Virus record (IMG/VR): IMGVR_UViG_3300034152_001291
Span: 1-64,000 of that record
Length of the DNA: 64,000 bases
Source of the DNA: a virus
Reading direction: 5' to 3' (one strand)
Of the stretch, positions 42,522-63,890 are shown piece by piece. How positions within the stretch are numbered: the first letter of the stretch is position 1; every line of letters begins with the position of its first letter. Made by a program: the position numbers and the translations under genes. The notes under the pieces were generated by a model. The model did no database searches, was not told the DNA's origin, and worked only from the letters and a program-made list of their open reading frames with translations.

Positions 42522-42790
42522 CGCTCGGCGCGGCGGGCGCCGGGCTGGGGATCGGCGGGGGGCTTGCCTCCCATCTCAGGAAGTACCGGGCTCAGAAGAA
42601 GGAGTGGCTCGCAGGACGGGCCAGTCCTCCCATCCACCCCAAGAGCGTCAAGGTCTGGGATTACCTCAGGCGTCCTTCCATGATCACGCCGAGCCTGGCC
42701 CGTCGCATCATGGGCGGGGCCGCCGCCGGGGCCGGGACCGCTCTCGCCTTGAATGAGATCCTCAAGCGTCTAAAGAAGCGCAAGAAATGA
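42338..42790 (+). CDS. Small protein with the shared motif and hydrophobic Gly-rich parts
   Basis: ATG 42338 follows GAGGAAGGGTCC. It opens SFAFRGFAEEIQKIADWREE, the shared motif. A charged stretch follows, then LTLGAAGAGLGIGGGLASHL and RIMGGAAAGAGTALALNEIL, two Gly and Ala-rich segments that may cross a membrane, and a basic end. It overlaps the previous gene by 184 bases and the polymerase gene by four. Confidence 0.68.
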   Translation: MGHQSSFAFRGFAEEIQKIADWREEVLGDGVRSDAQEVLPEEGGAQEKIARKKKKEEDGALTLGAAGAGLGIGGGLASHLRKYRAQKKEWLAGRASPPIHPKSVKVWDYLRRPSMITPSLARRIMGGAAAGAGTALALNEILKRLKKRKK

Positions 42791-45700
42791 TCAACGCCGA
42801 CCAGCAGTTTCCGGAGATGATGAAGCGGGTGGAGAACGCGATCTCCCGCGCTTTTCCCATCGAGTCCAAGCGGCACGTCATGGACGTCCGGAACCTGCGT
42901 TGGAAGAACTTCGGGCCTTCGATCCGGGACAACATCCGGCTTCAGAAAGAGTTCAAGAACAAGGACAAGACCCTCTCCGCCGACCTGGTCGGGGACGTGA
43001 GGATCCGGTCGAGAGCGGGGAGGGTGGTCGACACCAAGCCCGGCATGGTGCTCGTCACCCTCCCTCACATTACCAACCGGGCCTCCTACATCGTCAACGG
43101 CCACGAGGTGCAGACGGTGAACCAGCTCCGGCTGCGCCCGGGCCCCTACTCGAGGTTCACCTCCGACGACAACACGGAGACCTTCATCAATGCGGCGGGC
43201 GGAGGTTATAAGATCATCTTCAACCGCCAGACGGGCGTGCTCCGCTTGAAGTCCGGCTCCTCATTCTTCTACCTCTACCCGATCCTGAAGAGCCTCGGCG
43301 TCACGGACGCGCAAATGAAGTCGGCGTGGGGTGGCGATATCTTCACCGCTAACAAGGCGCACGACAAGAGCGATCAGGTTACGCGCCTCTACCGGAACAT
43401 GCGTCCTTACGCCGAGATCCCGGAGGATCCGGAGGAGCTGTCCACCGCCGTCGACACCTTCTTTCGTTCGAAGCAGCTCGACCCGAAGATCTCCAAGATC
43501 ACGATGGGGAAGGAATACGATCGGATCTCTCCCGACCTTCTTCTCCGGTCCAGCGGGAAGGCGATCGACCTGGCCAAGGGCAGCGTGGAGATGGACGACA
43601 CCGAGTCGCTCGCTTTCAAGTCCATCCACAGCGTCGAGGATTTCATCCCCGAGAGAATCGAGAAGGCCATCCCGAGCGTGAAGCGCGCGATCCAGTTCAA
43701 GATGGACAGGGCCCCCAAGATCTCGAGCCTTCTCTCTCCCGCGTCCTTCTCCAATCCCGTGATCGATTGGTTCATCACGAGCGAGTTCACCCGCTACTCG
43801 GACCAGCAGAATCCCGTGGACATGGCGTCGACGAGCCAGCTAACGACCACCATGGGAGAGGGAGGAATTCGAAGCGCCCACGCCGTGACCGACCAGGTGC
43901 GCATGGTTCACCCCTCCCAGATGGGTTTCTTGGATCCCATTCACAGCCCGGAGGGTGGTCGGATCGGTGTGACGGGGCACCTCACGATCGGAGCGGAGAA
44001 GAAGGGCGACAGCCTCTACACCAAGGTCATCGACGCGAAGACCGGCCGCCAGGTCTCGAAGAGCGCTCAGGACCTCGAGAACGCGGTCATCGCCTTCAAT
44101 GACCAGTACGACCTGACTGGGGACCGGCCACGTCCCTTGAAGCCGAGGGTGGAGGTCCGGGCAAAGGGGAAAATTCAGATTGTTCCAGCGTCGCAGGTCG
44201 AGTACGTCTTCAGGGATCCCAGGTCGTTCTTCTCGGTCACGTCGAACGCGATTCCCTTCCTCCACAACAACAACCCCAACCGCGGGCAGATGGCGGACCG
44301 CCACATCGAGCAGACCGTCCCCCTGACCGATCCGGACAGTCCCGTGGTTCAATCCAAGTTTCAAGGCAAGGAGGGCTTCGACGACTTCTTCGGCCGGAAC
44401 GTGAGCATCCAGTCCCCGGTGGATGGGACGGTCACCCTGGTTCGGAACGACCGGCTCAAGATCCGGGGAGACGACGGAAAGATGTACCTGGCCTACCTTC
44501 ACTACCAGTACCCCCTGAACGGAGGTTCGTTCCTCACGGACAGGCCGACCGTGAAGGCGGGGGACCGCGTCAAGAAAGGGCAGGTCATCGCGGAGAACAA
44601 CTTCTCGAAGGGAGGGGCGCTGGCTCTCGGCAAGACGCTCAGGACAGCTTACGTTCCTTACAAGGGCTACAACTTCGAGGACGGGGTGGTCATCTCCCAG
44701 GCCGCCGCGAGGAAGCTGACTTCCGAGCACCAGTATCAGCTCAGGCTCGACATCGACAGGAACACCAGGGTGGGGCTCGACATCTTCCTCGCGCACTTCC
44801 CGGACGAGATCGTGAACATCGATCGGGCCAAGTACGATCGGGACGGGATAGTCAGGAAGGGAAGCCGGGTCACCAAGGATGAGATCCTGGTCCCGGCCGT
44901 GTCCCAGACCGAGGTCAGCGAAGAATTCGACTACGCCCGTCTTCACAAGTCGCTGAAGAAGCCGTGGCGCAACGCCTCCATCGTGTGGGAGAGCGACTTT
45001 CCGGGTGAGGTCGTGGACGTCGTGAAGACCTCGAAATTCATCAAGGTGTTTCTTCGAACGGAGGAAGCTGCGCAGGTGGGCGACAAGGTCTCCCAGCGAT
45101 CAGGCGGGAAGGGAATCATCGTCAACATACTCCCGGATAATGAGATGCTCCAAGGAGAGGACGGGAAGCCGGTGGATGTCCTCTTCAATCCCGGGGGCGT
45201 CACGGGGCGCGTGAATCCGGGACAGCTCTACGAAGCGAGCATGGGGAAGGTCTCGAGGAAGACCGGCGAGAAGTACCTGGTGGAGAACTTCTCTCCGGAG
45301 TCGTCTCTCGACCGCGTTCAGGCGGAGATGCGAAAAGCGGGCGTCAAGGATACCGAGACGCTCACGGATCCCGGCACGGGGAACAAGATCAACGATATTT
45401 TTACGGGCGACATTCACTTCCTGAAGCTCCAGCATCAGGTTCGGAACAAGTTCAAGGCGAGAGGCCTCGGCAGTTACACGACGGACGAGCAGCCGAGCAA
45501 GGTCGGGAAGGAGTCGGCACAGAACATCGGATCTGGGGAGCTCTACGCTCTTCTCGCCTCGGGAGCCATGCACTTCCTGAAAGACACGACGACACTGAAG
45601 TCGCAGTCGAATCCTGAATACTGGCGCGCCCTTCAGACCGGCCTCCCCACGCCGCCCCCGCAGCAGCCTTTCATTCTCGACAAGTTCGTCACGAGTCTGG

Positions 45701-48700
45701 AGGGGGCCGGCGTCAACCTGGCCCGCGAAGGATCGAAGGTGAAGGCCCTCCCCATGACGGACAAGGACGTGGAGTCCCGGTCCAGGGGAGAGATCAAGAA
45801 CTTCACCGTGGTCCGGGCGTCAGACTTGAAGCCGGAGGCCGGAGGGCTCTTCGACAAGGGGATCACGGGAGGCTACGACGGGGTCCACTGGGCCCATATC
45901 GATCTCGAGACCCCCATGCCGAGCCCGCTCATGGAGAAGGCCCTGATCGCGGTCGCGGGCCTGAAGCCCGCCGAGTACAAGTCGATCATGCGAGGCACGC
46001 TCTTCGTGACGAGGGACGGGCACTTGACGACGGACTCGAAGAAGGGGGCGCCGGCGGGAGAAGGCCTGAAGATTCTCCTCGATAAGGTCAATGTGGAGAG
46101 GGATCTCGAGGATACGATTTCCCAGATCCGGATCGCCCGGGGCAGCAGGCTGGACGACCTGAACAAGAAGCGTCGCTACCTCCAGGCCCTGAAATCGTCG
46201 AAGCTCACGCCCTCCGAGGCCTACATCACAAGCAAGGTCCCCGTGATCCCGCCCAAGTTCAGGCCGGTCTACCCCCTGCCGGACGGGTCTCTGAACGTGG
46301 CCGACCCTAATCACGGGTATCGTGAAGTCCTGATGATCAACAATCAGCTGAAGGCGCTGAGGAATCAGGGTGTCGACAACAGGAATCTCGCTTCCATGCG
46401 GGCGGATCTCTACGGGGCTCTCCAGGGGTTGACGGGCATGACGGAGCCTCTCACCAGGGCCAAGAACTTCAGGGGCTTCGTCTCGACCATCAAGGGGAGG
46501 TCGAACAAGAGAGGGCTGTTCCAGGGAAAGGTGGTGAAGAGGCCCCAGGACCTCTCCGGGCGCTCTACGGTGATCCCCGATCCGAATCTCGGAATCGACG
46601 AGGTGGGTCTTCCGGCCGACATGGCGCTGACCATCTACAAGCCGTTTTTGGTGCGCCGTCTCGTGGGCATGGGCTACAAGCCCACCGAGGCCATGGATCT
46701 CGTCGACAAGAAAGATCCGAAGGTTTTGGACATCCTGAAGGACGAGGCGGCGGAGCGCCCGGTCTGGATGAATCGCGCGCCGAGCCTTCACAAATTCAGC
46801 ATGCTTCCCTTCAGGCCGAGGATCGCTCCCGGCAAGGCGATCCAGGTCAATCCCCTCATCGTGAAGGGGTTCAACATGGACTTCAACGGGGATTCCTGCT
46901 CGCCCGATACCGTCGTTTACGTTCGGCGTGTCTCCGATAGAACATTATTCGTGGGGTCTTTCGATGAATTTGTGAAGAACGAGCTCTTGCCTGGAATCGA
47001 TGACGCCGGTTTGGAGGAGATAGCCGGGGGCGTCACTGGAATTCTTGAGTTCGCTGATTCAGCTTATGAGGTCCTGGGACTTTTCGAGGGGAAAATTGCG
47101 TGGCAGCCTTTGAACCAGATAACGATACACACATCTCACGGGCCATGCTTTGAAGTCTCGTTCAAATCCGGTGACACTTTGATCTGTTCCGAGCACCACA
47201 ATCTATTCGGGGTGGATCCAGATACCCTCGATCTTTTCACTTTCAAAACCGAAAAGCATGAGGAGTATCCCGACGTTGTCGTCCCTATCGTCTCATTGTG
47301 GGATTCCGAACCGGTCGGCAACGCAAGGATTCCGGCCCTGGACTCGGGCAGGCGGCTGGATACTGTCCCTGTCGATGACGATTTGGCCTGGTGGACGGGA
47401 GTCTATGTTGGGGAGGGAAGCCTGACCGGACGGAATGATATCGTATCCTGTTCGTCTTCCGATCCGGAGATGCTTGGCCAGATCAAGATCGCTATGGAAC
47501 GCATTGGGCCCGTGTGGGAAACAGATAACCAGGTGAGGATAACAAGTAAAGATCTCTTCAAGGCTTTTGAGAGTGCTTTCGGAAAGGGAAGCCAGAACAA
47601 GAAGTTTCCGGATTTCGTCTTCGAGATGCCTCCGGCGCTTCGGTTGCAGGCCGTTGTCGGTTTCCTCGACGCGGAAGCACAGGCCGCATTTGATATCAAC
47701 GGTCGTCCATTCTTGACGGTAGAATTGACGAGTCTCCAGGCTCTCCGGCAAGTATCCATGTTGATGAGAAGCGTAGGCATCCGGAGCTCCATAAGAGAAG
47801 GTCGACCGGAAAAAACCGGAAGGAAGAAGACCTGGATTCTTTACGTTGAGAAATCCGGATTCGGGCTTCTTCCAAACTTTCGATCAAAATCGAAAAAAGA
47901 ATGGCAGGCTAAAGTTCGAAACTTTTCTGAAATCTCCAGAAGTCGGATGGATATGGTTCCAATGTTCGATTCGGTCTTCTCGGCTCTCACGAAGAAAGGC
48001 CTGGAGAATAGGACAGAGGATAAAAAGACGCGGGCCGAACGCAGAGCGTGGGCGAAAGAGTATGCTTCCAGCCATGGAGTTCCTTTCGGGCCTGTATCGA
48101 AAAGCGATCTTGTCGGGCATTCTTTGATAACACGTCGAGCCGCGTTCAGAATTGCGGCCTGGTACGGTCCATTCGAGAAGGATTCTCTTCTCGACAAGTG
48201 GAGATCCCTGGTGGAGAACACTTCCGTATCGTACACGGAGATTTCTTGCCGAGAAATCGACCGGCTCCCGATCCTTTACGATTTCAGCGTTCCTCCGAAT
48301 GAAGCCTTTGTTGTCAACTCTGGAATCGTGACGCACAACACCGTCGGCATCCATGTCCCCGTCAGCGAGGAGGCCCGGCAGGAGGCTTTCCAGAAGCTTC
48401 CGTCCAAGCAGCTGCTCTCGGTCCGGGAGCAGTCGGCGGTCCACACTCCGTCGAAGGAATATGTCCTCGGTCTCTACCTCATGACGCATCCCAAAGGAAA
48501 GACTGTCACGGCGAAGTCTCGTACCGACATGATGGCCCAGTATCAGGCCAAGAAGATCAAGGTGAACACGCCCGTGAAGATAGGGTCGGATATCTGGACG
48601 CCGGGCCAGGCTCTGGTCGACGATGTCTTTCCCGTAGGGCTGAAGCCCGGCAACAGGGTGATGGACAAGAGGACGGTGGAGACCCTTCTCTTCGAGGTCG

Positions 48701-50247
48701 CCAGAAAGGAGCCCAACAAGGCCGGTGACGTCATCAGCAGGATCAAGGACCTCGGCGCTCATTTCGTGACCGAGATCGGCTACTCCTTCGGGCTCGAGGA
48801 CCTCAAGTTCGACTACAAGAAACGCGAGCAGATCCTGGATGAGGCCGAGAAGAAAACGCCCAAGATCGGTTTCGAGAAGGCCTACGGGCAGGCTCTTGAC
48901 AAGATGAACAGCGAGATTCGGAAGACGAAAGGGAATCGGGTCGTCGAAGGCAGCATCACTTCGGGAGCTTTCGGCAAGGCCGACATGGTCACGCAGATGA
49001 TTGCCACGCCCGTGGCGGTCCGGGACCACAAGAATGAGATCATCCCGGTCCCTATCAAACGATCGTTTGCGGAAGGGCACGGAATTTCGAGCTACTGGGC
49101 AACGGCGCCGGGGGCTCGCAAGGGTCTGATCGAGAAGGGCCTCGGCACGGCGGAGACGGGAGCGCTGAGCAAGCGCCTGATCAACACCACCGTCACGCAG
49201 ACAATCAGCATGAAGGACTGCGGCACGACCGAGGGAACTCTGATGCCGATCGAGTCCCGCGACGCGCTGGACCACTTCGTCGCCGACGGCCCGTTCAAGA
49301 AGGAGGCGATCACGTCCGAGCTCGTGACACAGATGAAGCGACGCGGCCTGAAGCAGGTGCTCGTTCGGTCTCCGCTGAAGTGCGAGGCTCCCCAGGGAGT
49401 CTGCGCGATGTGCTTCGGCCTGCTGGAAAACGGGAAGGTCCCGCCGATCGGCTACAACGTGGGCGTCCTTTCGGGCCAGGCCGTCTCGGAACCCATGACC
49501 CAGCTCACTCTGAGGGCCTTCCATACGGGCGGAGCAATGGCGCAGAAGGCGGTCGGCTTCGACCGGATCAAACAGATTTTCGAACTCCCGGAGAATCTCC
49601 CTGGACGCGCCCCGCTCGCTCAGACCACGGGCAAGGTCGAATCGATCGACCCGGCTCCCGGCGGGGGTTGGATCGTGGTCATCGGGGGTGTGGACCATTT
49701 CGTGCCTCAGGAGCGCGGGCTCGGGGTGAAGAGAGGCGACAGGGTCTTGGCGGGTCAGCAGATCTCCAAGACCGGGGTCATTCGCCCTCAGGAACTACTC
49801 GCAGCCACGAACGACATCGATAAGGTTCGTGGCCAGATGGTGAAGGATCTCAACAAGGAGTTCGGGACGGGTGGTGTCCATATTCAGCGAAAGCTCCTCG
49901 AGACCGTCGTGCGCCCGATGACTGATCGAGCTGAGGTGACGGACGCCGGCGACGGAGAAAAGAAGGGCTACTTCAAGGGGGACGTCGTCGCCATAAACAA
50001 GCTCGAGAAGACGAACAAGGAGATCCGTAAGGCCGGCGGGAAACCGATCGAATATCAGCCCACTCTTTTGTCCATCCGCGTCGCCCCGTATCATAGCGGC
50101 GACTTCATCGGGAAGCTGATGTTCGAGCGTCCTCACGAGACGATCTCGGCCGCCCCGAGGATCGGCGCCGAGGCGGATGTGGTGAAGGGACACCCGATCA
50201 CGCGCCACACGTTCGGTCGCTACTTTGGAGCTCGGAATAAGAAATGA
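42787..50247 (+). CDS. Fused beta-beta' RNA polymerase with an intein in the catalytic loop
   Basis: One 2486-residue frame. Residues 1-~960 are beta-like: GYNFEDG at 627-633, VLFNPGGVTGRVNPGQLYE near 798-816, and a C-terminal GELYALLASGAMHFL. From about 975 it is beta'-like: LKPEAGGLFDKGITGG, GLFQGKVVKRPQDLSGRSTV, and PVWMNRAPSLHKFS. The catalytic loop GFNMDFNGD (1361-1369) is cut by an intein at 1370-1851, then TVGIHVP resumes. The zinc site C2145, C2199, C2206, C2209 and a trigger-loop region (QLTLRAFHTGGA from 2239) are present; the N-terminal beta' zinc finger seems absent. The middle catalytic Asp is Asn. Spliced length is about 2004. No alpha, omega or sigma gene is visible. Its place among virion genes may mean late or virion-carried enzyme. 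Confidence 0.93.
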   Translation: MINADQQFPEMMKRVENAISRAFPIESKRHVMDVRNLRWKNFGPSIRDNIRLQKEFKNKDKTLSADLVGDVRIRSRAGRVVDTKPGMVLVTLPHITNRASYIVNGHEVQTVNQLRLRPGPYSRFTSDDNTETFINAAGGGYKIIFNRQTGVLRLKSGSSFFYLYPILKSLGVTDAQMKSAWGGDIFTANKAHDKSDQVTRLYRNMRPYAEIPEDPEELSTAVDTFFRSKQLDPKISKITMGKEYDRISPDLLLRSSGKAIDLAKGSVEMDDTESLAFKSIHSVEDFIPERIEKAIPSVKRAIQFKMDRAPKISSLLSPASFSNPVIDWFITSEFTRYSDQQNPVDMASTSQLTTTMGEGGIRSAHAVTDQVRMVHPSQMGFLDPIHSPEGGRIGVTGHLTIGAEKKGDSLYTKVIDAKTGRQVSKSAQDLENAVIAFNDQYDLTGDRPRPLKPRVEVRAKGKIQIVPASQVEYVFRDPRSFFSVTSNAIPFLHNNNPNRGQMADRHIEQTVPLTDPDSPVVQSKFQGKEGFDDFFGRNVSIQSPVDGTVTLVRNDRLKIRGDDGKMYLAYLHYQYPLNGGSFLTDRPTVKAGDRVKKGQVIAENNFSKGGALALGKTLRTAYVPYKGYNFEDGVVISQAAARKLTSEHQYQLRLDIDRNTRVGLDIFLAHFPDEIVNIDRAKYDRDGIVRKGSRVTKDEILVPAVSQTEVSEEFDYARLHKSLKKPWRNASIVWESDFPGEVVDVVKTSKFIKVFLRTEEAAQVGDKVSQRSGGKGIIVNILPDNEMLQGEDGKPVDVLFNPGGVTGRVNPGQLYEASMGKVSRKTGEKYLVENFSPESSLDRVQAEMRKAGVKDTETLTDPGTGNKINDIFTGDIHFLKLQHQVRNKFKARGLGSYTTDEQPSKVGKESAQNIGSGELYALLASGAMHFLKDTTTLKSQSNPEYWRALQTGLPTPPPQQPFILDKFVTSLEGAGVNLAREGSKVKALPMTDKDVESRSRGEIKNFTVVRASDLKPEAGGLFDKGITGGYDGVHWAHIDLETPMPSPLMEKALIAVAGLKPAEYKSIMRGTLFVTRDGHLTTDSKKGAPAGEGLKILLDKVNVERDLEDTISQIRIARGSRLDDLNKKRRYLQALKSSKLTPSEAYITSKVPVIPPKFRPVYPLPDGSLNVADPNHGYREVLMINNQLKALRNQGVDNRNLASMRADLYGALQGLTGMTEPLTRAKNFRGFVSTIKGRSNKRGLFQGKVVKRPQDLSGRSTVIPDPNLGIDEVGLPADMALTIYKPFLVRRLVGMGYKPTEAMDLVDKKDPKVLDILKDEAAERPVWMNRAPSLHKFSMLPFRPRIAPGKAIQVNPLIVKGFNMDFNGDSCSPDTVVYVRRVSDRTLFVGSFDEFVKNELLPGIDDAGLEEIAGGVTGILEFADSAYEVLGLFEGKIAWQPLNQITIHTSHGPCFEVSFKSGDTLICSEHHNLFGVDPDTLDLFTFKTEKHEEYPDVVVPIVSLWDSEPVGNARIPALDSGRRLDTVPVDDDLAWWTGVYVGEGSLTGRNDIVSCSSSDPEMLGQIKIAMERIGPVWETDNQVRITSKDLFKAFESAFGKGSQNKKFPDFVFEMPPALRLQAVVGFLDAEAQAAFDINGRPFLTVELTSLQALRQVSMLMRSVGIRSSIREGRPEKTGRKKTWILYVEKSGFGLLPNFRSKSKKEWQAKVRNFSEISRSRMDMVPMFDSVFSALTKKGLENRTEDKKTRAERRAWAKEYASSHGVPFGPVSKSDLVGHSLITRRAAFRIAAWYGPFEKDSLLDKWRSLVENTSVSYTEISCREIDRLPILYDFSVPPNEAFVVNSGIVTHNTVGIHVPVSEEARQEAFQKLPSKQLLSVREQSAVHTPSKEYVLGLYLMTHPKGKTVTAKSRTDMMAQYQAKKIKVNTPVKIGSDIWTPGQALVDDVFPVGLKPGNRVMDKRTVETLLFEVARKEPNKAGDVISRIKDLGAHFVTEIGYSFGLEDLKFDYKKREQILDEAEKKTPKIGFEKAYGQALDKMNSEIRKTKGNRVVEGSITSGAFGKADMVTQMIATPVAVRDHKNEIIPVPIKRSFAEGHGISSYWATAPGARKGLIEKGLGTAETGALSKRLINTTVTQTISMKDCGTTEGTLMPIESRDALDHFVADGPFKKEAITSELVTQMKRRGLKQVLVRSPLKCEAPQGVCAMCFGLLENGKVPPIGYNVGVLSGQAVSEPMTQLTLRAFHTGGAMAQKAVGFDRIKQIFELPENLPGRAPLAQTTGKVESIDPAPGGGWIVVIGGVDHFVPQERGLGVKRGDRVLAGQQISKTGVIRPQELLAATNDIDKVRGQMVKDLNKEFGTGGVHIQRKLLETVVRPMTDRAEVTDAGDGEKKGYFKGDVVAINKLEKTNKEIRKAGGKPIEYQPTLLSIRVAPYHSGDFIGKLMFERPHETISAAPRIGAEADVVKGHPITRHTFGRYFGARNKK
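46894..48339 (+). mobile_element. Intein with LAGLIDADG endonuclease in the RNA polymerase
   Basis: The 482-residue element starts SCSPDTVVYV and ends FVVNSGIVTHN, with Thr as the next extein residue. Block B-like GDTLICSEHHNLFG is present. Two LAGLIDADG-type helices, GVYVGEGSL (near 1538) and VVGFLDAEA (near 1623), mark a homing endonuclease. I place the first residue at Ser, because the flanks then join as NGD-TVGIHVP, as in other polymerases; Cys one residue later is the alternative. The DNA is visibly richer in A and T than its flanks, which suggests recent arrival. Confidence 0.92.
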
Positions 50248-61277: not shown

Positions 61278-63890
61278 ATGATCACCGACGAAGGTCTTCT
61301 GATCACGCCTCTGGGGATGGACGTTCCCGAGTGGGGCCCGACGGCCATCCCGCTCCACCCCCGCGCCATGGAGAAGATCGCGTCGGGCATCTACATCCCG
61401 GATCGTCTCCTGGAGTTCATGGACCAGGTTCGGCCGAGGGATGACGGCCGCTACGTTCTTTTGCACGCGATCGGGGCGGGAGAGTATTGGGGATGTTTTC
61501 TGCCGGGCTCCCCTGTATTGACGGAAAGCGGTAGGTACCTTCCCATCGAAAAGATCTCTAAGGGGATGCGGGTGATGGGCCGCAGCGGCCTTTTCAGGGA
61601 AGTCCTCACTACATGGGAATACCGTCATCACCGTAGCGGTGTCCGGATCTCGGTGGAAGGTCTTGTCGATGATATAGGAACAACCCCAAACCACGAATTT
61701 CTCTCCCTCTCACATGAGGAGATTCTGTGCGCAAGAGATCGGACTGCGAGGTGTATTCCGGAGACGCAGGGCGCTCAAGGTATCTGCAAACGCCCCCAGT
61801 CGGTCGCTTGCGCCAAGAAGCCCAGGATCCTGACCGGGAAGTGGAGGCGTGCCGATAGCCTTGCCTTGAAGGATTTTCTGCTGTGCTCCATTCCGAAGCA
61901 CGACGCGCCTGCAATCTTCACCGAGGCGGAGGCTCGAGTAGTCGGTCTCTGGGTTGCTGACGGCAATTTCGTGTCGAATGGTGGTAGTGTCGACCTGGAG
62001 TTCTCAGTCTCCGATTCCGAGGCCTATCTGATCGACGACCTTCGGGCTCTCGGGTCTCCCCAGGTTTATAGAGGGCATGGGGCTTGTAAGTCTGTCCGGT
62101 TGAGGAACCACGAATTAGTGTCCAGAATCTATCGGCTGTTCGGCGAGTATTCTCATGGTAAACGGATTCCCGGAGACTTCGCCCGTCAGCCGGAGAACGT
62201 CATACTGGCTTTCCTTTCCGGCTACTTCGACGGCGATGGTTCTCAAAATCTGAAGGATGGCAGCGCCTACGCCCACACTGTCTCGAAGGATCTGGCTCTC
62301 GGAGTTCAGAGGCTTCTTTGGTCCGTCAGGATTCCGTCCACTGTCTGTCCCGCTCCGAAGGCCTATCATGTTCATTTCTCGCTCAGTAGAGGTAGAAGTC
62401 TGGCCGAGAAGTGTCGGAAATTCCGGAGGCACGCTCCGAAAGGACGGCCGCGTTACAGGCAGTTTTTCATCGATGACTACGTTTGTCTTCCGATTCGAAA
62501 GATGGAGAGATTCGAGATCGACGGCCCGGTCTACGATCTCGAAGTGGAAGAAGAGCACACTTATAACGTGGCTCAAGTCGTCTGTCACAACAGCAACAAA
62601 AATTCGGACTACTTCCCCGAGTGGAGTCTGAAGGGCGAGGAGATGCCTCCGGATGTGAAGGAGTACATCCGGGAGCACCGTCTGCCGATTCCGATCGAGT
62701 ACGGGCACAAGACGTTCGAGAGGTACGGGTATCCTTACTTCCATCACAACAACCACGACCCGATCCATTCGATCGGCGAGCGAGTCTGCTGCTCGGCCTA
62801 CAACGACAGGATGCACCGGGTCGAGCTGATCGTTTTCATCCTGAAGAGAAAGGCCCCAGATGTGATTCGAAGGATCGACCGGGGCGAGCCGGTTCCCTGG
62901 TCAATGGGGGCCAAGTTGCCTTTCGACGTGTGCGTGGTTTGCCGCCACCCGGCCCGGAAGAGGAGCGACTACTGTGAGCACCTTCGAAGCATGCTGGGGA
63001 GGATTCTTCCTGACGGTCAGAGGGTTTTCTCCCTGAACTACTTCCCCAGGTTCTTCGACATCAGCGTGGTGAGCGTTCCGGCGGACCGCAGTGCCTACTC
63101 CTTGAAGAAGGTCGCCTCCTATCTCCAGGAAGGGAAGGCCAGGGTGGTCTGGACCCCGGGCATGGACCACGCGTCGGTAGAGCCGGTCCCCGTGGGAGGT
63201 TCAGAAGAGATGGAAAAGTTCGCCGGCATGCTCGACTACCTGGCGAGCGGAGGGGAGAAGTCCGCGGACATCGAGAAAGAGGTTCCGGCCCAGGAGCCCG
63301 CCAAGGACCTCGGAGAGAGTCCGATCCACCCTGATCTCTGGAAGGTCCTCTACGACATGGCGGCCAAGGATCGCGCCGGGACCCCCGAGATGGAGGGCGG
63401 TCTCCTCTCCAGCCTGAGGAGCGAACCCCTGAGAAAGGCCCTGACCGCCCTCACCTCCCTGGGGATCATGTTGAAGCCCAGGGAGGCTGACAGCCTGATC
63501 GGGGATCAGGAAATGCCAGACGGACTTGACGAAGAGGAACCTTCCTCTAAACTGTTAGATGAGTTGACGGGGCTGGTTCCGGAGCGATCCATGGTCGAGC
63601 CTCATTTCTCGATCAGGATCATCCGGATTCGACGTCCGGATTCGTCCCCTTCGGACATCGTCAAGGAAGGGGGCGCCTACGACAGGTACCTGAAGTGGCT
63701 GAGATCGATCGACCTCGAGAAGTTCGCGGAACTGGCGGAGCGTCCCGAGGTCGAGGCCGCGATGGCCGGGAAGGCGCTGAAAGAGAAAAGCCTGAACTTC
63801 CTGGACAAGACGGCCGGAAGGGACTTCGGTCCTTTCCTTCCTTTCGTCGCAGCCATGATGGTCGAGTCGGATCTCCGACCAACCCCGTAG
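61278..63890 (+). CDS. Prohead-protease-like structural protein interrupted by an intein
   Basis: The 870-residue frame loses 366 residues on splicing, leaving about 504. The spliced junction reads GAGEYWG-SNKNSDYFPEW, matching the conserved EYWG-x-N-x-NGD segment of a protein found in head operons of large phages and often called prohead protease. FHHNNHDPIHSIG, RVELIVFIL, WSMGAKL, DVCVVC, RSDYCEHL and FFDISVVSVPADR follow in the expected order. The C-terminal 250 residues are less conserved. Whether it is the protease itself or a linked capsid protein is not settled from sequence alone. The next gene should be scaffold or capsid. Confidence 0.78.
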   Translation: MITDEGLLITPLGMDVPEWGPTAIPLHPRAMEKIASGIYIPDRLLEFMDQVRPRDDGRYVLLHAIGAGEYWGCFLPGSPVLTESGRYLPIEKISKGMRVMGRSGLFREVLTTWEYRHHRSGVRISVEGLVDDIGTTPNHEFLSLSHEEILCARDRTARCIPETQGAQGICKRPQSVACAKKPRILTGKWRRADSLALKDFLLCSIPKHDAPAIFTEAEARVVGLWVADGNFVSNGGSVDLEFSVSDSEAYLIDDLRALGSPQVYRGHGACKSVRLRNHELVSRIYRLFGEYSHGKRIPGDFARQPENVILAFLSGYFDGDGSQNLKDGSAYAHTVSKDLALGVQRLLWSVRIPSTVCPAPKAYHVHFSLSRGRSLAEKCRKFRRHAPKGRPRYRQFFIDDYVCLPIRKMERFEIDGPVYDLEVEEEHTYNVAQVVCHNSNKNSDYFPEWSLKGEEMPPDVKEYIREHRLPIPIEYGHKTFERYGYPYFHHNNHDPIHSIGERVCCSAYNDRMHRVELIVFILKRKAPDVIRRIDRGEPVPWSMGAKLPFDVCVVCRHPARKRSDYCEHLRSMLGRILPDGQRVFSLNYFPRFFDISVVSVPADRSAYSLKKVASYLQEGKARVVWTPGMDHASVEPVPVGGSEEMEKFAGMLDYLASGGEKSADIEKEVPAQEPAKDLGESPIHPDLWKVLYDMAAKDRAGTPEMEGGLLSSLRSEPLRKALTALTSLGIMLKPREADSLIGDQEMPDGLDEEEPSSKLLDELTGLVPERSMVEPHFSIRIIRIRRPDSSPSDIVKEGGAYDRYLKWLRSIDLEKFAELAERPEVEAAMAGKALKEKSLNFLDKTAGRDFGPFLPFVAAMMVESDLRPTP
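61494..62591 (+). mobile_element. Intein with LAGLIDADG endonuclease in the protease-like gene
   Basis: The 366-residue element starts CFLPGSPVLTESG, has block B GTTPNHEFLSLS, and ends VYDLEVEEEHTYNVAQVVCH followed by Asn; Ser is the next extein residue. VVGLWVADGNF (near 221) and FLSGYFDGDG (near 312) are the paired LAGLIDADG helices. All splicing residues are intact, so it should be active. It is shorter than the polymerase intein and not closely similar to it. Confidence 0.93.

Follow-up and report, generated by a model that had tools for sequence, protein, structure and literature searches.

The catalytic loop of a fused β–β′ RNA polymerase encoded by a virus contains Asn instead of the second of its three Asp residues and is directly followed by an intein; among the phage polymerases compared here, Asn was found at this position exclusively where an intein occupies the same insertion site. 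The gene lies in the window, i.e., the whole stretch of 64,000 nucleotides analyzed (positions 1 to 64,000 of IMG/VR record IMGVR_UViG_3300034152_001291, a viral contig of 124.7 kb).

The fused polymerase and its catalytic loop

The polymerase is encoded by an ORF of 2486 aa (42787..50247, + strand; ORF, Pfam and NCBIfam evidence) consisting of an N-extein (42787..46893, +; Pfam, NCBIfam) that comprises β and the N-terminal part of β′ through the catalytic loop, an in-frame intein and a C-extein (48340..50247, +; TIGR02386 rpoC, E = 5e-90) with the remainder of β′, including bridge helix and trigger loop. Pfam matches are Rpb2_6 (E = 3e-52), Rpb1_5 (9e-24), Rpb1_2 (1e-20) and Rpb2_3 (9e-12), the NCBIfam rpoB/rpoC models also match, and by both collections the double-psi barrel homology of the two large subunits is present. 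The other catalytic elements, namely NRAP, the NFEDG of β, GDKxxxRxGxKG, the trigger loop and the Zn block, are intact and read, in this order, NRAPSLHKF, GYNFEDGVVIS, GDKVSQRSGGKG, SSYWATAPGARKGLIEKGLGTAETGALSKRL and CEAPQGVCAMC.

Few known residues are as strongly conserved as the three Asp of the loop NADFDGD. In the window the β′ active-site block NRAP...NMDFNGD (46771..46893, +) has the same spacing as in cellular RpoC and the loop itself, N-M-D-F-N-G-D (46873-46893, +), is read from the codons of ORF 42787-50247, which start at 46870 (ttc), 46873 (aac), 46876 (atg), 46879 (gac), 46882 (ttc), 46885 (aac), 46888 (ggg) and 46891 (gat), the translation being ...VKGF-N-M-D-F-N-G-D-S.... The segment 46879-46893 therefore encodes DFNGD and not the three-Asp DFDGD, the middle catalytic Asp being replaced by Asn (AAC, 46885-46887, +) at the position of E. 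coli β′ D462, that is at position −3 of the splice junction and immediately before Gly. Codons and coordinates as reported for this loop in an earlier note were exact. After removal of the intein, NMDFNGD-TVGIHVPVS of the window aligns without gaps with cellular NADFDGD-QMAVHVPLS, with the middle Asp changed to Asn. No shift of the junction rebuilds DFDGD in the window, because the C-extein starts with TVGIHVP and the intein ends with THN.

The window polymerase shares with cellular RpoC/Rpb1 the position of the loop, its NRAP flank, the spacing and the first and third Asp, and with cellular β/β′ also NFEDG, GDKxxxRxGxKG, the trigger loop and the Zn-ligand block, but differs in the middle Asn, in having β and β′ in one chain and in the intein right behind the loop. 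The fused architecture is common to phage polymerases of bacterial type, such as those of Salmonella phage Arash (gp206), of Vibrio phages D69/D181 and of relatives in IMG/VR, to which the window polymerase is about 30% (Arash/D69/D181) and up to 69% (IMG/VR) identical. Unlike the window, these have AADYDGD or NADFDGD, i.e., three Asp, and in most of them the site is intein-free. In L002 and L005 (Arash gp206 and gp216), L003, L046, L047, L052, L055, L085, L092, L100 and L117 the ORF of the fused polymerase stops about 85–90 residues past the catalytic loop; since Arash has, some kb farther on, a further gene with the annotation of a polymerase subunit, β′ is apparently split just behind the active site. 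A separate peculiarity is an exact in-frame tandem duplication of 13 residues, FQPVKGGFFDTRTFQPVKGGFFDTRTF, in the L012/L014 polymerase, which the close relative L011 does not have.

Occurrence of Asn in other polymerases

A degenerate pattern (RAP, a fixed spacing of 31 residues and xD[FY]NGD) was searched in IMG/VR and in prokaryote genomes. From IMG/VR it retrieved, besides one chance match, six further phage RNA polymerases (L010, L011, L012, L014, L015 and L016), whose contigs, belonging to six metagenome ids, encode NADFNGD or NMDFNGD, the Asn codon being AAC in the window and in L016 and AAT in the other Asn contigs. While these motif patterns did find relatives, a single-protein search yielded no close relative in IMG/VR. 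Among 84,980 bacterial and archaeal genomes (one per species) a single RpoC has the pattern, the other 22 matches being unrelated or due to chance; this RpoC (L038, JANXTJ010000228.1), which contains NADFNGDQMAVHLPLS and no intein, is on a 5.3-kb contig of a Salinibacterium MAG and represents either an error or a rare allele. No residue but Asn was found to replace the middle Asp, Asn was never found at the first Asp of the triad, and IMG/VR yielded no loop whose middle codon has A or G in third position. None of the intein-bearing loops departs from Asp at the first or the third position, and of the three triad positions only the middle one is followed by Gly.

To judge from these sequences, the Asp → Asn change in the window is genuine. 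A single base separates AAC from the expected codon, which is what a sequencing or assembly error might produce; however, the recurrence of Asn in the six other contigs, with two different codons and with an intein every time, leaves such an error a negligible probability and excludes it for practical purposes. The replacement described in the earlier note is thus real, and the circumstance there considered indicative of an assembly error, that all relatives have Asp, is excluded by six independent Asn contigs.

The intein of the window

The intein (46894..48339, +) has 482 aa, begins with Ser1, ends with His-Asn482 and is referred to here as group I. It is recognized by TIGR01443 and LAGLIDADG_3, both above cut-off; the match to PF14890 (E = 4e-5) scores 23.9 and stays below the curated cut-off of 35.8, which the inteins of L010 and L015 exceed. 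In the predicted structures, in which the N-extein is disordered, model confidence jumps at Ser1 from about 40 to about 80, supporting the intein boundaries, and the model matches the intein endonucleases TliVMA, PI-PkoII and PI-PfuI, the fold being that of an intein plus a LAGLIDADG endonuclease, the second repeat of which corresponds to 47659..47850 (+; PF14528, intein residues 256-319). Ser1 (46894..46896, +), which all four group I inteins have, is the presumed first splicing nucleophile; with the junction there and not at the following Cys, the block A Thr falls at position 6 and the extein stays in register. Block B (TxxH) reads TTEHH/ATEHH in L010, L011 and L015 and CSEHH in the window, where Ser may replace the Thr. 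The C-terminal region reads YDF...THN|T, and its D463 (block F), H481 and N482 are the same throughout group I. The codons of Asn482 and of the C-extein residue Thr+1 lie at 48337..48342 (+).

With the class 1 LAGLIDADG inteins TliVMA, PI-PkoII and PI-PfuI the window intein shares, as far as sequence and model tell, the fold, Ser1, the block F Asp, the C-terminal His-Asn and Thr+1, but it is inserted within a catalytic loop, and three positions before it a catalytic residue of the extein is altered. To our knowledge, and in the open-access literature searched, no case has been described of an intein in a catalytic loop accompanied by an altered catalytic extein residue. Like the RNA polymerase inteins of eukaryotes and viruses it occupies a highly conserved position near the active site, although those mapped are in the second-largest subunit and not behind the DFDGD triad (PMC1635734). 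A second intein-bearing phage gene, with LAGLIDADG and intein-splicing matches and an extein weakly resembling a head maturation protease, is found at 61278-63890 of the window.

Association of Asn with inteins at the site

Each of the six Asn relatives carries an intein at the very insertion site used in the window, and this site is shared by three kinds of intein. Group I (Ser1, EHH in block B, C-terminal His-Asn) comprises the inteins of the window, L010, L011/L012/L014 and L015; all four are accompanied by Asn, even if the window intein is just 27–29% identical to the others. Group II (position 1 neither Cys nor Ser, block B without His, C-terminal Ser-Asn) occurs with Asn in L016 and with Asp elsewhere, and group III (Ser1, C-terminal Asp) with Asp in the loop of both L107 and L163.

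Inteins of group II type were recorded in L072 (615-2150), L042 (410-1912, −), L082 (10624-12198, −), L145, L133, L144, L149, L153, L156 and L016 (1483-3072); their position 1 is Q, F, D, K, E, L or A, the His of block B is replaced (TDDDPRAVYG) and Ser-Asn is followed by Thr+1. The L072/L042/L016 type resembles class 2 (KlbA, with Ala1 and Ser at G:6) but has Thr+1 and no His B:10, so that its sequences possibly represent a new splicing class. In the inteins of L107 (8073-9608, ending VVYD|T) and L163 (ending IVQD|T) a C-terminal Asp is present where Asn is usual. The same polymerase chains can harbor further inteins, i.e., in the β region of L012/L014 (HTPE|C...GN|S) and, as a second one in β′, in L016 (CLERTT...THN|T), so that a single gene can contain at least two inteins; no altered catalytic residue was noticed beside the extra ones.

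Among 75 distinct phage polymerases, Asn is found in 5 of the 18 with an intein at the site and in none of the 57 without one (Fisher p 5e-4), the remaining 13 intein-bearing polymerases having Asp. The Asp sample, drawn with a RAPxLHKF pattern, does not amount to a census. The equivalent Asp pattern gave 86 contigs, nearly all intein-free, and a search with intein profiles added Asp polymerases with inteins, that is, cases running counter to the association. A perfect two-way link, the first impression, was ruled out by these 13 Asp-bearing cases, in which other inteins occupy the site, and the link is therefore one-sided: Asn implies the intein, not the reverse.

Phylogeny, gene conversion and homing

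A quick IQ-TREE analysis of the spliced polymerase (646 columns, motif residue masked) places the five Asn rows as five separate changes, each on well-supported branches and usually next to Asp sisters: L010 with L059 and L011 with L040 (both sisters Asp and intein-free), the window with L072 (Asp, group II intein). A constraint of all five Asn rows to one clade is rejected (p-AU 3e-6), as is that of L010/L011/L015 (4e-6). In independent pairs the intein tracks Asn in 3.9 of 5 and the opposite direction never occurs (sign test p 0.06–0.25), five tree-corrected pairs being too few to reach significance.

The way in which Asn reached at least some of these genes can be read from their flanks. 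L010 and L059 differ by about 11.5 positions per 42 bases over 6054 aligned nt save for one patch that flanks the insertion site (−27 to +44); the only mismatches inside it, five in number, lie at −13, −10, −9, −7 and +3, positions at which L010 is in each case identical to L011, another lineage with Asn and intein. This conversion footprint shows that the AAT codon reached L010 along with the intein. Furthermore, the active-site inteins of L011 and L012/L014 are near-identical (L011 vs L012: pS 0.006, i.e., 0.6% of synonymous sites) in exteins that differ at 14–23% of synonymous sites, which points to recent homing between phages. With an intein phylogeny that differs from the polymerase phylogeny and with converted flanks, the element is a co-converting homing element, and, on the evidence of these alignments, intein and Asn codon are one mobile unit moving among phage polymerase genes, at least in the L010/L011 group. 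For L016 a separate gain of Asn must be assumed, since its intein belongs to another family, and the Asn of the window (AAC) may be of separate origin too. The relation of Asn to the neighboring intein surmised in the earlier note is thereby borne out, while the “homing-site evolution” invoked there is too vague, the evidence being that codon and intein share a short conversion tract.

Selection on the Asn-bearing polymerases

Single Asp → Asn mutants, as in the work of Sosunov of 2005, reportedly suffer a severe loss at each of the three positions. The test of selection suggests that the Asn-bearing polymerases are functional: dN/dS between L011 and L012, both with Asn, amounts to 0.10 upstream of the intein and to 0.03 downstream of it, values that rule out a decaying gene. 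When 22 whole polymerases are aligned, only at the catalytic position do the five Asn rows have a common residue that none of the 15 Asp rows has, so that this alignment contains no compensating extein substitution. A second β′ was not found in the ten records searched (G000, G001 twice; the records may be incomplete), and no gene for the isoaspartate repair methyltransferase PCMT was found in these phage records.

The earlier note had raised the possibility of an inactive or repurposed enzyme. An inactive or decaying polymerase, or a remnant repurposed for DNA binding, would be in keeping with the lack of one catalytic metal ligand and with the finding that the exchange of all three Asp of YonO for Asn abolishes its activity (PMC5467207). 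Against this stand the seven contigs with ORFs of some 2500 aa, the retention of the other catalytic motifs, strong purifying selection and the failure to find another β′ in the records, all of which render it very improbable.

Possible meaning of Asn beside the intein

How a near-invariant Asp can be exchanged in enzymes that remain under selection may be explained in more than one way. Asn could be tolerated, as the earlier note considered, having arisen once or twice beside an intein and spread through homing co-conversion, with a mature enzyme that runs on Asp-Asn-Asp, if perhaps at a lower rate or preferring a different metal; Asn would then be rare without intein because it enters only with the intein and leaves when an inteinless Asp allele replaces the whole site. 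The conversion footprint and the recent homing display the linkage directly, no modification chemistry is necessary and the metal can be bound by the Asn carbonyl. On the other hand, the incidence of Asn in 0/57 inteinless phage polymerases and in one RpoC from 84,980 genomes implies that selection normally rejects it; Asp is one transition away, yet this return has not occurred in any of the four diverged group I cases; the exteins have no compensating change; and Asn beside a different intein family in L016 means that Asn originated twice or more, in each case where an intein is present. Tolerance has a substantial chance of being correct, albeit clearly below even. Far less probable is that Asn benefits splicing alone, a better yield being paid for with a weak polymerase that is accepted since the host polymerase does most transcription. 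Extein residues adjacent to the junction do influence splicing (PMC4031507) and every Ser1/His-Asn group I intein here accompanies Asn, but a C-extein dN/dS of 0.03 is unlike that of a weakly needed enzyme, and inteins of groups II and III cope with Asp at this site.

The explanation tentatively favored, only slightly ahead of a tolerated Asn in probability, is that the group I intein reverses selection at the middle Asp, the precursor gaining from Asn and the mature enzyme being restored by Asn-Gly deamidation. Selection would keep Asn where a group I intein is present and allow only Asp where the intein is absent. Asn at −3 might help the precursor if, for instance, three clustered carboxylates and a metal beside Ser1 hindered splicing or promoted side cleavage. 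Asn-Gly is the classical, most deamidation-prone pair; since Asn sits before Gly, Asn462 could be converted via a succinimide to Asp462 during or after splicing, and the mature enzyme would regain its triad. Precise loss of the intein without correction of the codon would leave an Asn polymerase of the kind that selection disallows among inteinless ones, making the intein hard to lose. Restoration to Asp would explain at once why the enzyme functions, why compensation is lacking, why the intein is needed and why the substitute is Asn, even though Asn, as the nearest mutational neighbor of Asp (one transition) and of similar size, need not owe its status as sole alternative to deamidation. The inactivity of YonO with three Asn is likewise in its favor. 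Against restoration speak the slow uncatalyzed rate, with half-lives in free peptides on the order of one day, long compared with a phage cycle, isoaspartate as by-product and usually the main product, and the fact that no PCMT was found in the records; a general need for Asn is contradicted by the 13 Asp rows, in which most other inteins at the site coexist with Asp. The same dipeptide chemistry underlies the deamidation of NGR to isoDGR with gain of function, e.g., in ceruloplasmin (PMC7827708), where it belongs to ageing and damage and not, as proposed here, to the restoration of a catalytic metal ligand.

In its strongest form, which is doubtful, the proposal would have the intein carry the inactivating Asp → Asn change and, by splicing-linked Asn-Gly deamidation, supply the only way back to the active residue, its indispensability being of its own making. 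Were this true, a mobile protein element would alter the chemistry of a catalytic residue of its host and, coupled to post-translational repair, become needed for it. The repeated exchange of a near-invariant Asp, only beside an intein, represents in any case a natural experiment on the function of a multisubunit polymerase with Asp-Asn-Asp, informative whether restoration or tolerance holds.
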